Assembly: GCA_025928335.1 (NCBI GenBank)
Contig: JAICJQ010000023.1
Span: forward strand, 1 to 35,808
Source of the DNA: Gemmatimonadaceae bacterium
Lineage (GTDB): Bacteria; Gemmatimonadota; Gemmatimonadetes; Gemmatimonadales; Gemmatimonadaceae
DNA length: 35,808 nucleotides
Reading direction: 5' to 3'
Part shown: positions 21,116-23,835 of the stretch, piece by piece
Layout: every line of letters begins with the position of its first letter
How positions within the stretch are numbered: position 1 is the stretch's first letter
The notes under the pieces: generated by a model
Databases searched by the model: none
What the model was told of the DNA's origin: nothing
What the model saw: only the letters and a program-made list of their open reading frames with translations
Translations under genes and position numbers: made by a program

Positions 21116-21433
21116 TCAGCCGAGGGAGATGTCGTTGATACGAACTTCGGTGAAGCCCTGCCGGTGCCCGCGCTTGCGCGCGTAGTTCTTTCGCCGCTTC
21201 TGCTTGAAGACGATGATCTTCTCACCGCGGCCATGGCGGACGATCTCGCCGGTCACGCTGGCGCCTTTGAGGCCGGGAATGCCGGTTTTGACGTTCTTGC
21301 CGTCGTTGCCGAGGAGAACGTCGTTGAACTCGATCTTCCCGCCCTCTTCGCCGACGACGGAGGGGATCTTGTAGGTGCGACCGGGCTCGACACGGAACTG
21401 CTTGCCGCCGGTTTTGATGATAGCGTAAGGCAT
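21116..21433 (-). CDS. rplU: 50S ribosomal protein L21
   Basis: Large-subunit protein that binds 23S rRNA. The 105-residue product begins [18 protein letters not shown] and contains [15 protein letters not shown] and the basic [20 protein letters not shown] block near the C-terminus. First gene of the rplU-rpmA operon. Its promoter is at 21469-21497, and the heptamer-array element begins just upstream of that. No Shine-Dalgarno sequence is evident. Confidence 0.98.
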
Positions 21434-21509: not shown

Positions 21510-21537
21510 GTACTAGATCGTAGATCCTAGGTCCTAG
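21510..21537. repeat. left heptamer array of the S23-type element
   Basis: Four tandem 7-base units, read on the minus strand as CTAGGAC, CTAGGAT, CTACGAT and CTAGTAC. They are the inverted counterpart of the array at 21816-21845. The array supplies the TAG stop of the enclosed reading frame. Confidence 0.85.
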
Positions 21538-21815
21538 ATGGCGTCGGGACGTTCCCTTGCGTCGGATCGGGCTACGGAGCGACTGAGGCTGTGAAGCATC
21601 CGGCCAATCTCGTCTGCCAGAGCGGCAAGGTCGCGATACGTCGCAGCGGTCAAATACCCAACGCGATGCGCAAGCAGCAGCGTCTCGAGCTCGCTCAGCG
21701 ACCCTAGCGCATGCGAAAGGTGATTGAGATAATGGCCTTTGCCGCTCTTTGAGTTTCCCTCGGCGACGTTCGACGGAATCGATACCGCCGACCCCTCCGC
21801 GGTTCGCCGTTTCAT
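21534..21815 (-). CDS. four-helix-bundle (S23/IVS-type) protein, N-terminally truncated
   Basis: 93 residues. AVSIPSNVAEGNSKSGK (10-26) and HALGSLSELETLLLAHRVGYL (35-55) are the hallmarks of the 23S-rRNA intervening-sequence / four-helix-bundle family, whose fold resembles Avd of diversity-generating retroelements. Normal members have about 115-125 residues with a first helix before SIPSN. Here only nine residues precede it, and an in-frame TAG lies immediately before the ATG, so the first helix is missing. Inverted heptamer arrays abut both ends: one begins right after the start codon and the other contains the stop. It is codirectional with rplU, with no terminator between. Family function is unknown; it may be a decayed cargo gene. 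Confidence 0.65.
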   Translation of the reverse strand: MKRRTAEGSAVSIPSNVAEGNSKSGKGHYLNHLSHALGSLSELETLLLAHRVGYLTAATYRDLAALADEIGRMLHSLSRSVARSDARERPDAI

Positions 21816-21845
21816 CTAGGATCTAGGACCCAGGATCTAAGATCT
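21816..21845. repeat. right heptamer array of the S23-type element
   Basis: Plus-strand tandem units CTAGGAT, CTAGGAC, CCAGGAT and CTAAGAT plus CT, directly adjoining the start codon of the enclosed frame. Shifted by one unit it is the near-perfect inverse of the left array. About 50 plain bases separate it from the RNase G stop. Confidence 0.85.
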
Positions 21846-21896: not shown

Positions 21897-23450
21897 CTAC
21901 GCCACAGCGTACTGTCCCGTCACGTCTCGCCCAGCCGACTTCACAAGCAGTTTGAACTCGTCCGGTTTCAACAGCGGATCGTCGCGAAACTCGAGCCCGA
22001 ACCCGACCGCCTTCTCCAGCTTCTTCAGTAGATCCTTCTCGTTCTCCAGGACGTACATCGCTACGTCCGGGTGCAGGCGCACGACGAGTGGGTCCTTGCG
22101 ACCCTCGAGGCCGGCGCGCTTGACGGAGCGCTCGATGCGGCGGGCGATGGTTTCGGCGGTGAAGACGCGGCCCGTTCCGTGACAGGTCGGGCAGGCCTCC
22201 GTCATGTTCTGCAAATGGCTCTGCCGGACCCGCTGGCGCGTCATCTCGATCAGACCGAGGTCGCTCACGGCGAAGGCCTTGGTGCGCGCCCGGTCGCGAC
22301 CCAGATGGGTGCGCAGCTCCTGAAGCACTTTTTCGCGGTTCGCCTTCGTCTCCATGTCGATGAAGTCGCAGACGATGATGCCGCCGAGGTCGCGGAGGCG
22401 CGCCTGACGGGCGACTTCGCGGGCCGCTTCGAGATTCGTACGAAGGATTGTTTTCTCAGGGTCCTTCTTGCCCGTGTAGCGGCCTGAGTTCACGTCGATC
22501 GACACGAGCGCTTCCGTGGGCTCGATGATCAGGTAGCCGCCGGACGGCAGATCGCAGCGACGCTTGAAGAGGTCGCGGATTTCCTGCTCGATCTCGGCCT
22601 TATCAAAGAGCGGCGTGACGTCCTCGTACAGCTTCACGCGATCGATCAGCTCGGGAGCAATGCCCTTCAAGTACTCGAGGATCTCGTTGTGCACCTGCTT
22701 CGAGTCCACGGTGACCTGCTCGACCTTCGTGCTGAACACGTCGCGCATCAAGCCGCGGGTCAGGCTGGTCTCGCGATGGATCAGCGACGGCGCGCGGACG
22801 AAGTGCGTCTTCCGCTTGATCCGCTTCCACTGGCCAATCAGCGTCGTGAGCTCACGCTCGAGGGTCTCTTGGGTGACGTCCTCACCAACCGTGCGCACGA
22901 TGACGCCGCCCGAATTCTTCGGCAGCACTTCCTCGACTTGACCGCGGAGTCGTTTGCGCGCCTCACGGTCGCCGATCTTCCGGCTGACGCCCACGCGCTC
23001 GGCGAAGGGCATGTACACCAGGAAGCGGCCGGCGAGCGACACCTGCGCGGTGACGCGCGGACCCTTCGTGGAGATCGGCTCTTTCGAGACTTGAACGATG
23101 AGGTCCTGGCCGCGCTTGACGACATCCTGAATCGCCGGGGCTTTCGCGCGGCGGCGACGGCCGGGCTCCGAATCGTCGTCGTCCGCGTCGTCGTCGTCAC
23201 TCTCGCCTTCCCCTTCGCCTTCGTCGTACACGACGTCGGAGGCGTGGAGGAATGCGCTCTTTTCGGTGCCGATATTGACGAACGCTGCCTGAATGCCAGG
23301 AAGGACTGCTTCTACTTTGCCCAGATAGATGTCGCCGACCATGCGGCGAGCGTCCGGGCGGTCGACCAGTAGTTCAACGAGCTGGTCGTCCTCGATAATG
23401 GCGACCCGCGTCTCGCGCGGGTTCGCGTTGATCAGAATTTCTCGTTTCAT
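21897..23450 (-). CDS. rng: ribonuclease G/E family endoribonuclease
   Basis: Cleaves single-stranded RNA in rRNA maturation and mRNA decay. The 517-residue product has an S1 domain (~35-150), a 5'-sensor and RNase H-like region, and the DNase I-like catalytic core. Asp319 in SIDVNSGR and Asp362 in CDFIDME are the magnesium ligands. CPTCHGTG (420-427) is the zinc-link. It lacks the long RNase E scaffold tail, so it is RNase G-like. The S1 domain is split by a charged insert (~77-103, Asp/Glu then Arg/Lys). The ATG at 23450 gives the standard MKREILINA start; upstream sequence in frame (to 23750) is not conserved. A long leader precedes it. Confidence 0.95.
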   Translation of the reverse strand: MKREILINANPRETRVAIIEDDQLVELLVDRPDARRMVGDIYLGKVEAVLPGIQAAFVNIGTEKSAFLHASDVVYDEGEGEGESDDDDADDDDSEPGRRRRAKAPAIQDVVKRGQDLIVQVSKEPISTKGPRVTAQVSLAGRFLVYMPFAERVGVSRKIGDREARKRLRGQVEEVLPKNSGGVIVRTVGEDVTQETLERELTTLIGQWKRIKRKTHFVRAPSLIHRETSLTRGLMRDVFSTKVEQVTVDSKQVHNEILEYLKGIAPELIDRVKLYEDVTPLFDKAEIEQEIRDLFKRRCDLPSGGYLIIEPTEALVSIDVNSGRYTGKKDPEKTILRTNLEAAREVARQARLRDLGGIIVCDFIDMETKANREKVLQELRTHLGRDRARTKAFAVSDLGLIEMTRQRVRQSHLQNMTEACPTCHGTGRVFTAETIARRIERSVKRAGLEGRKDPLVVRLHPDVAMYVLENEKDLLKKLEKAVGFGLEFRDDPLLKPDEFKLLVKSAGRDVTGQYAVA

Positions 23451-23835
23451 CGATGTCCGCCATCCAACGCGCGCCCGGCGACTCGGCGGGTGCGGCGTGG
23501 CGGAAAAGCAAAAGGTTGGGGGCGGGTCGTGACCGCGCATTGCGATCGACGACATCACGCGTAAAGGCTGTCCGACGCTCCGGCGTGATCGTCCACACCG
23601 GCTCCGGCTGGTCGCGATGCGCCGATTCTCCCTGCCTCGGAAGATCCGGCACGACGCGCAGCGTGGAACGGAGCGGTGTGCGATCGGCCTGACCCAACAG
23701 GCCTCGCACCAGGAACAGGACGAACGCCCGGACGACAGCGAAAACCGCATCGACCGTCGGTGGGCGCAAGACGCTCACATCCCGCGACGAGTCGCTGCGC
23801 GGAGATGAAGCGAAAGAAAACGTTAGAAGGCTCAC
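23374..23835 (-). CDS. doubtful reading frame in the rng leader
   Basis: A GTG-started frame of 153 codons fills the gap upstream of rng and overlaps its first 77 bases in another frame. A hydrophobic stretch (VFAVVRAFVLFLVRGLL, ~31-47) could be a membrane helix; the rest is Arg/Pro-rich and unrecognised. By hand count about 70% of third codon positions before the rng start are G or C, against about 55% of second positions. This is mildly coding-like but weaker than neighbouring genes. The GTG would lie almost at the predicted transcription start, implying a leaderless message. Equally likely it is a non-coding 5' leader. This is the only content seen in 23451-23890. Confidence 0.28.
   Translation of the reverse strand: MSLLTFSFASSPRSDSSRDVSVLRPPTVDAVFAVVRAFVLFLVRGLLGQADRTPLRSTLRVVPDLPRQGESAHRDQPEPVWTITPERRTAFTRDVVDRNARSRPAPNLLLFRHAAPAESPGARWMADIDETRNSDQREPARDAGRHYRGRPAR

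Follow-up and report, generated by a model that had tools for sequence, protein, structure and literature searches.

RAYT (TnpA-REP) systems are made of one coding copy flanked by inverted repeats and of many coding-free inverted pairs, located between genes. Short repeats of another sort are the heptameric arrays that Rehm 2015 (PMC4692102) describes from the intergenic DNA of Xanthomonas and Nostoc; those with the unit GGGAATC often form inverted pairs. In the portions of the literature used here, no protein partner is named for the heptamer arrays of Xanthomonas, Nostoc and Beggiatoaceae, and Rehm 2015 (PMC4692102) has no occurrence of S23 and, in the portion on which we draw, proposes no protein partner. 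The S23 (or IVP) protein family, present in many phyla (among the at least 591 public matches), is described as functionally uncharacterised in the excerpts of PMC4990558 and PMC11270868 considered here. According to the same excerpts, in the intervening sequence (IVS) of Coxiella 23S rRNA the S23 frame is preceded by tandem heptamers and the ends pair in a 28-bp stem (PMC4990558), and IVP frames are found in 16S and 23S insertions of CPR bacteria (PMC11270868). In the open-access literature (most subscription journals lying outside that scope), we found no account that connects S23 genes with heptamer arrays as a general rule; that of the Coxiella IVS (PMC4990558) comes closest.

The window analysed here is the whole stretch of 35,808 nucleotides of a Gemmatimonadaceae contig (JAICJQ010000023.1), in which an S23 frame is enclosed by two facing heptamer arrays. 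Such elements resemble RAYT-REPIN systems in having a coding copy set in inverted repeats and many coding-free pairs, of genome-specific sequence and in intergenic DNA. They differ from them in that the enclosed protein, a PF05635 four-helix bundle, is without the HUH Y1 domain encoded by a RAYT-REPIN element, in that the repeats are mostly tandem arrays of 7- or 8-mers, and in that 16 of 20 genomes lack Y1. Another RAYT-REPIN trait, the presence of inverted copies that have no gene but resemble the coding copy of the same genome, was found in the window genome and in others, and not in a sample from Bosea. With the 23S rRNA IVS, these elements have in common the protein family and, in the window as well as in our survey, an S23 ORF inside terminal inverted repeats; the window locus differs in lying between two protein genes, rng and rplU, and genome-wide coding-free families are not described for the IVS in the excerpts used here. 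The Avd protein of diversity-generating retroelements has a similar fold, but the sequences are 13-14% identical and its reverse transcriptase (RT) partner is missing at cut-off in 16 of the 20 genomes. As for MITEs and foldback elements, the likeness is clearest in one genome, G009, where near-palindromes of about 195 nt bear the arms of an S23 element; the difference is that no transposase partner is known, that the ends of the G009 copies look fuzzy and that no target-site duplication was seen by eye. We hold this class of S23 elements to be new, since they did not qualify as members of any known family; counting the IVS as their parent would alter that. Given the tandem heptamers and the stem described in part for the Coxiella IVS (PMC4990558), we suspect that rRNA intervening sequences are probably the rRNA-resident subset of S23 elements.

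The S23 element of the window and its array-only relatives

The features of the locus are as follows:

21510..21537, minus strand: 3' arm of the element (inverted array 1), made of four degenerate CTAGGAY heptamers and holding the S23 stop codon
21538..21540, no strand given: triplet adjoining array 1, which together with CAT 21813-21815 beside array 2 extends the inverted match by ATG/CAT
21534..21815, minus strand: S23/IVP four-helix-bundle frame of 93 aa, apparently truncated at its N-terminus (ORF list, PF05635 and TIGR02436 profiles)
21816..21843, plus strand: 5' arm of the element (inverted array 2), made of four CTAGGAY-like heptamers and immediately preceding the ATG
21116..21433, minus strand: rplU, neighbour outside the element
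21897..23750, minus strand: rng, neighbour outside the element (longest open frame, true start probably later; named by eye and from the earlier sequence-only reading)

That sequence-only reading had proposed two facing arrays of four degenerate heptamers each, enclosing a frame of the S23/IVS family between rng and rplU. All of this was borne out: the arrays lie where listed above, the frame matches PF05635 (E 4.3e-17, 62.7 bits, cut-off 33.8) and TIGR02436 (63.6 bits, above the cut-off of 24), with weak Avd profile matches below cut-off, and rng stops near 21897, on the other side of the element from rplU. A repeat search gave arms of 25 nt that are 92% complementary (23/25) and, in the other register, of 27 nt at 85%, ATG/CAT included; the inverted repeat scores 41, compared with a maximum of 26 across 200 shuffles of the region. 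The TAG stop codon (21534-21536) does lie inside the left array, as had been claimed, while the right array, thought to start at the codon after the ATG, is in fact directly upstream of it.

The window protein aligns with positions 37-105 of the 106 of the PF05635 profile, so that helix 1 of the four-helix domain is absent; the codon preceding the ATG is TAG, and by eye no ribosome-binding site is seen upstream of it. On these grounds, the copy looks truncated, with helix 1 gone and the array now abutting the remainder. No other ORF of at least 40 aa is found within the frame. The idea of a minimal mobile or self-maintaining unit thus stands in so far as gene and arrays belong together and are element-like, and as S23 is absent from this interval in three of six genomes of the genus; it falls short in that this copy is incomplete. 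The best explanation of the locus, which we regard as reasonably probable when taken jointly with the trans-acting role of S23 discussed below, is that it belongs, in decayed form, to a class of small intergenic elements that is widespread.

A pattern search of the window genome returned five further inverted CTAGGAY pairs (contigs C39, C56, C112, C162, and C220) and two single arrays (C35 and C280). The middles of the five pairs are about 20-30 nt long and hold no S23. By eye, GAAACGGCG adjoins the array at one inner end in two of them and resembles the start of the window frame, ATGAAACGGCG; the other three are similar, not identical, and in four of the five the array continues into an ATG or a CAT at one end or at both. 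The remaining two-mismatch hits may be due to chance. As CTAGGAY read backwards is a rotation of itself, a reversed-pattern control is uninformative for this unit, and we relied instead on inverted pairs and on near absence from relatives: among 39 of these (five from the same genus), none has a CTAGGAY array pair and three have one imperfect hit each.

Whether the CTAGGAY arrays of this genome flank S23 genes, as the sequence-only reading asked, has a divided answer: the window pair does, and the five other pairs and two single arrays do not. That reading had named arrays found mostly without S23 as an outcome that would tell against it, and this outcome did occur in the host genome. We do not consider the idea refuted by it, since several genomes have coding-free copies whose unit is that of an S23 gene of the same genome; we read the arrays lacking S23 as many coding-free copies beside one coding copy. 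The window genome has ten PF05635 matches at eight loci, two of which, L018 (C62, between GGCGGGC arrays) and L071 (C126), are broken by frame changes and split into two frames each; S23 decay is, thus, common in this genome.

Architecture, breadth, and placement of S23 elements

PF05635 matches were found in 48 of 59 genomes (window genome included), a genome of this order holding as many as 12 of them; 14 control genomes gave no match. We added a public set made of the best 80 of at least 591 matched stretches, 590 of which encode relatives. Both flanks of each S23 domain were then aligned against each other, one of them inverted, with a threshold score of 30. This score was reached in 111 of 130 loci (75 public ones from the best 80 of at least 591, plus 55 from relatives; 8 of 138 were dropped for short flanks) and in 10 of 552 windows of the same geometry elsewhere in those loci; in the public set taken with its short flanks, it was reached by 64 of the best 80 of at least 591 and by none of 80 shuffled controls. 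Across all sets (7 of 178 loci dropped for short flanks), 147 of 171 S23 loci lie inside inverted repeats scoring at least 30, with arms within 260 nt of the S23 domain, and 24 have no inverted repeat at threshold. The proposed association of S23 with arrays, therefore, held and is far wider than the window. One of the 147, L352, is a long fused frame with an unconvincing repeat. This locus (G020:C2:4973452) and G044:C3:65950 carry their S23 domain in frames of 538 and 617 aa and may be fusions that left the element.

The sequence of the repeated unit differs between S23 loci, its length being mostly 7 or 8 nt. In the 130-locus set, the self-identity of the arms is 0.58 at lag 7 and 0.56 at lag 14, compared with 0.33 at lags 8 and 16 and 0.25-0.29 at other lags. 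Among the 147, the period is 7 in 89, 8 in 18, and 9 to 11 in 5; the other 35 show no period from 4 to 12 at a threshold of 0.5, several being by eye long non-periodic repeats or repeats of 13- to 16-nt units. Arms of period 7 or 8 have a median of 4.7 units, and the tree tool assigns their hosts to 15 phyla, including an archaeal one. Read on the coding strand, G outnumbers C in the 5' arm of 131 loci, the opposite being true of 11.

Several loci have a particular organization. Two S23 frames lie within a few kb of each other in L144, L184, L187, L189, L196, and G052:C181:2890-3970, almost in tandem in L144 and G052. At L370 and L220 (G023), each flanking arm is itself a near-palindrome, and this foldback repeat is also found alone in the genome, as if S23 sat between two copies of it. 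The S23 genes of L140 (a record named Chitinophaga) and L188 (Betaproteobacteria) are sisters (support 100/98) and both have the unit AGGATTG, which suggests that gene and arrays were transferred together between phyla. In Pedobacter, a Flavo-1 RNA (RF01705) is present at L199:5453-5606, about 2 kb from the S23 gene.

As regards the protein, dN/dS was tried on seven pairs of near relatives, three of which gave no value. One unsaturated pair gave 0.10 (dS 0.30), and three others 0.08 to 0.14 but at dS values of 1.8 to 3.3 that make them unsafe; S23 is, thus, under purifying selection in one clear pair. The net charge is positive in 157 of 178 S23 domains. The predicted structure of an intact member, L133 (mean pLDDT 95.9), retrieved with Foldseek, in this order, XCC0516 (2gsc), BT_0352 (2rld), then Avd and subunits of diversity-generating retroelement particles, the comparison with Avd 4dwl and 8ub chains giving TM 0.68-0.71, E 0.02-0.2 and the low identity already mentioned. 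Periods 7 and 8 are grouped on the S23 tree, with 12 changes compared with a mean of 16.0 after shuffling and a count this low in 1 of 500 shuffles, a result to which near relatives contribute and for which the bootstrap was not settled. At the family cut-off, 16 of 20 genomes, S23-rich ones included, have no RT (PF00078/RVT_1), and the window genome (79% complete) has no RVT_1 match; the Y1 transposase (PF01797) is likewise missing in 16 of the 20, the window genome having one, located elsewhere than the element. G004, G005, G009, G010, and G011 have neither, yet 7 to 10 S23 matches each. RT and Y1 were, thus, both rejected as a general partner of S23.

S23 elements fit between genes. The median gap between array and neighbouring gene is 6 nt on the upstream side and 5 nt on the downstream side (gaps below 400 nt counted), and by eye several elements sit between genes that are usually co-transcribed. 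Counted with a crude ORF caller, the neighbours of 129 elements run in the same direction as S23 in 45 cases, are convergent in 42, run in the opposite direction in 24, and are divergent in nine, with a neighbour missing in nine. The two sources differ: public loci (n = 58, from the best 80 of at least 591) comprise 37 sense, 6 antisense, 11 convergent, and 0 divergent cases, and loci of relatives (n = 71) 8, 18, 31, and 9, respectively. Insertion in the RNA sense was, thus, rejected as a rule, within the limits of this ORF caller. We liken this placement to that of the Xanthomonas GGGAATC arrays, which, in the portion of Rehm 2015 (PMC4692102) used here, are described as near stop codons, under-represented between divergent genes, and preferentially made of four units. 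A 2013 survey, also seen through an excerpt, lists 18 IVP genes in cas loci, one of them between cmr3 and cmr2 (PMC3936711), which fits insertion of S23 elements between genes. An Rfam scan of 18 other S23 loci, mostly weak-repeat ones, placed none of them in rRNA.

Own-genome repeat families and the rng-rplU site

The central result of this analysis is that the specificity of arrays for the S23 genes of their own genome holds in several genomes. In G009, a 78-nt arm of one S23 element has 60 matches, and it has none in the window genome (G000), G010, G023, and G024. Apart from the S23 element, these 60 matches make up 26 inverted pairs, each spanning about 160-230 nt, with four unpaired arms and two further pieces left over. 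The 26 pairs are too short to hold S23; the coding-free copies are the near-palindromes mentioned above, and 20 of them read by eye showed no obvious target-site duplication and ends that look fuzzy. A 2.3-kb stretch around one copy, searched against ten genomes of that genus, gave 21 to 37 matches in five of them and one to three in the other five, those among the matches listed falling in the flanking genes. At the site of this copy, nine genomes of the genus were compared: the copy is present in four, present but partly masked in one, and absent in three, and one has another neighbour.

In Xanthomonas arboricola, an S23 gene (L200) is flanked by GGGAATC arrays, and 393 overlapping GGGAATC dimer hits are found in the genome (0 for the reversed pattern); in Pseudoxanthomonas wuyuanensis, the arrays beside the S23 gene are of GGGGACC, of which the genome has 143 dimer hits (reversed 1), along with 55 of GGGAATC. 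GGGGACC dimers number 0 in X. arboricola (reversed 1), 0 in Bosea, 2 in Nostoc, and 0 in Thiobacillus, and GGGAATC dimers 1, 15, and 1 in the latter three. Twenty Pseudoxanthomonas sites, picked from the hit lists mostly for closely spaced opposite hits, are nearly all inverted array pairs with differing middles between neighbouring genes, and one holds S23. The accB-accC gap (genes named by eye) is occupied in Pseudoxanthomonas by a GGGGACC pair without S23 (L296) and in Xanthomonas by the GGGAATC pair with S23 (L200).

We also used 150 S23 arm pairs as blastn queries against five 400-kb samples, three from genomes with S23 (G020, G023, and Bosea G070) and two from genomes without a PF05635 match (G030 and G008). 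Among own S23 elements, 6 of the 7 from G020 and 3 of the 5 from G023 found at least one place, compared with 2 of 143 and 3 of 145 foreign elements, at one place each; in the two S23-free samples, none of the 150 queries gave a place. Under a strict count (two strands at separate, non-overlapping positions), inverted places were found for 5 of 7 elements of G020, 1 of 5 of G023, and no foreign element in any sample; two further G023 elements with self-palindromic arms, at 5 and 2 places, were left out of this count. Foreign-arm matches are single and non-inverted (2 elements in G020, 3 in G023, 1 in G070). Searched de novo, inverted array pairs number 36 in G020, 1 in G023, 1 in Bosea, and 0 in the 800 kb of G030 and G008 together. 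Twelve of the 36 G020 pairs have an own S23 element as best match at a score of at least 40, namely 9 of 10 with period 7 and 3 of 5 with period 8. At 23 hand-picked sites, 22 of which had an own S23 in the set, this S23 came first in 16, a figure to be read together with the blastn samples and with the de novo pairs.

One has to keep in mind that some results go against a simple picture. The other 24 of the 36 G020 pairs, all 9-, 10-, and 11-mers among them, match no S23 of G020 that was compared (two S23 matches of this genome being outside the comparison), and our prior prediction that three more G020 S23 loci would carry the orphan 9-, 11-, or 8-mer units failed, as none did. The Bosea sample has no S23-matching family: its sole array pair is unlike the Bosea S23, the own arms have no place in it, and one foreign element has one. 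Also to be set on this side are the single foreign-arm matches, the 24 of 171 loci that have no inverted repeat at threshold, the 55 GGGAATC dimer hits of Pseudoxanthomonas, and the differing arrays at the rng-rplU site. Besides, what appears as array spread could be conversion at fixed sites and not movement. In the G020 sample (L333, L335, L337, L343, and others), inverted arrays of the 11-mer GGACTGAAGAA and of the 9-mers CACAGAGGA and CGCAGAGGA are common, with no match among the S23 loci compared.

Regarding the site of the window element, S23 is found between rng and rplU in three of six genomes of the genus and is absent from this interval in the other three. This comparison of sister genomes, suggested by the sequence-only reading, could be carried out to that extent and not to the nucleotide: an exact empty site was sought for the window and G009 copies and given up, the flanks being too diverged. 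The three rng-rplU S23 proteins are 48-51% identical and form one clade (support 90/91, in 92% of 200 bootstrap trees); a larger tree with two of the three leaves these two unresolved. Their arrays differ, with CTAGGAY in the window, TCACCGG in G004, and nothing above threshold in G001; unit and protein, thus, need not travel together. In 7 of 21 measurable rplU loci, the rng-rplU interval has a foldback score of at least 30. Five of these foldbacks lack S23: those of G009, G010, and G033 match an S23 element of their own genome first among 153, that of G029 does not, and G011 has no own S23 in the comparison set. From these comparisons, we conclude that the site is reused, or kept while the unit changes. 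Copy number and presence/absence suggest that the elements are mobile; neither a transposition event nor a target-site duplication was seen in this analysis.

A putative trans-acting partner of repeat families and its rivals

The reading that we favour, and to which we lend somewhat more than even credence, is that S23 is the trans-acting partner of genome-specific inverted-array repeat families, acting in the manner of RAYT-REPIN but with no known catalytic domain. In each element, a single S23/IVP gene is enclosed by inverted arrays whose unit measures 7 or 8 nt or, less often, by arrays of a longer unit or a long inverted repeat, and for many of these elements coding-free copies that share the unit or the arms form a family in the same genome. 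The protein is a four-helix bundle, in most cases positively charged, and has the fold of XCC0516 and Avd; it would recognise its cognate folded array in trans, and this recognition would let the array spread or be homogenised, probably with the help of host enzymes. Specificity, copy number, and conservation point to such cognate binding, trans action, and mobility. A bolder version, which we put forward tentatively, would make S23 proteins non-catalytic, sequence-specific array propagators that copy or convert their own unit into inverted arrays at gene boundaries throughout the genome, both arms being replaceable together at fixed sites; the Xanthomonas GGGAATC arrays, and perhaps the cyanobacterial tandem heptamers, would be their products, and the rRNA IVS their rRNA-resident form.

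S23 might instead be cargo, the arrays being terminal repeats of miniature elements moved by a host transposase and the gene having been captured early and kept for another function. Coding-free copies far outnumber S23 copies, S23 has no known catalytic motif, and the mobility profiles searched were those of RT (PF00078) and Y1 (PF01797), DDE and serine transposases being outside the set, all of which would suit a passenger. We nevertheless hold this to be rather unlikely, as one and the same protein family recurs in such repeats in hosts labelled with 15 phyla, with arms so close to the domain in 147 of 171 loci that little room is left for a second gene. Several S23 elements of one genome can have separate repeat families, unit length clusters on the S23 tree, and the unit differs between genomes, unlike the ends bound by a transposase, which are usually conserved. 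In quite another direction, the arrays may act as RNA, through an IVS-like transcript hairpin cut by RNase III that S23 binds or tolerates, spread occurring at the RNA level or being rare. The Coxiella 23S IVS is indeed RNase III-cut, with its heptamers before the S23 frame and its stem, as described in part in PMC4990558; public tandem gene pairs are mostly sense (37 versus 6, from the best 80 of at least 591), several elements lie between genes usually co-transcribed (by eye), and the fold is that of Avd, itself part of an RNA-protein particle. Against this stand the relatives, where antisense exceeds sense (18 to 8), the lack of an RT at cut-off in 16 of 20 genomes, where an RNA-to-DNA route would be left without its enzyme, and the stems of the 130-locus set, in which G-U pairs show no excess over A-C (134 versus 157; 38 loci versus 35) and so lend no support to selection on an RNA stem; we find an RNA-level explanation quite improbable. 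The arrays could finally be products of slippage selected as spacers or gene-end hairpins, with S23 merely happening to lie within such spacers, and heptamers are reported to be over-represented among long simple repeats in many bacteria, for which slippage has been proposed (PMC4692102 and PMC4679880, in the portions used here). Slippage alone gives neither the inverted order of units around a gene nor dozens of one-unit sites per genome, and S23 loci exceed their controls (111 of 130 versus 10 of 552), which makes this account very hard to believe.

If S23 is indeed the trans-acting partner of these families, the consequences go beyond the window. Linking S23 to the arrays supplies a protein partner for the repeats and a substrate for the protein, both directly testable. 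Should it be true that S23 propagates arrays without a known catalytic domain, this would be a new way for short repeats to spread, and the change of unit at a shared site would amount to genome-wide concerted evolution in bacteria.
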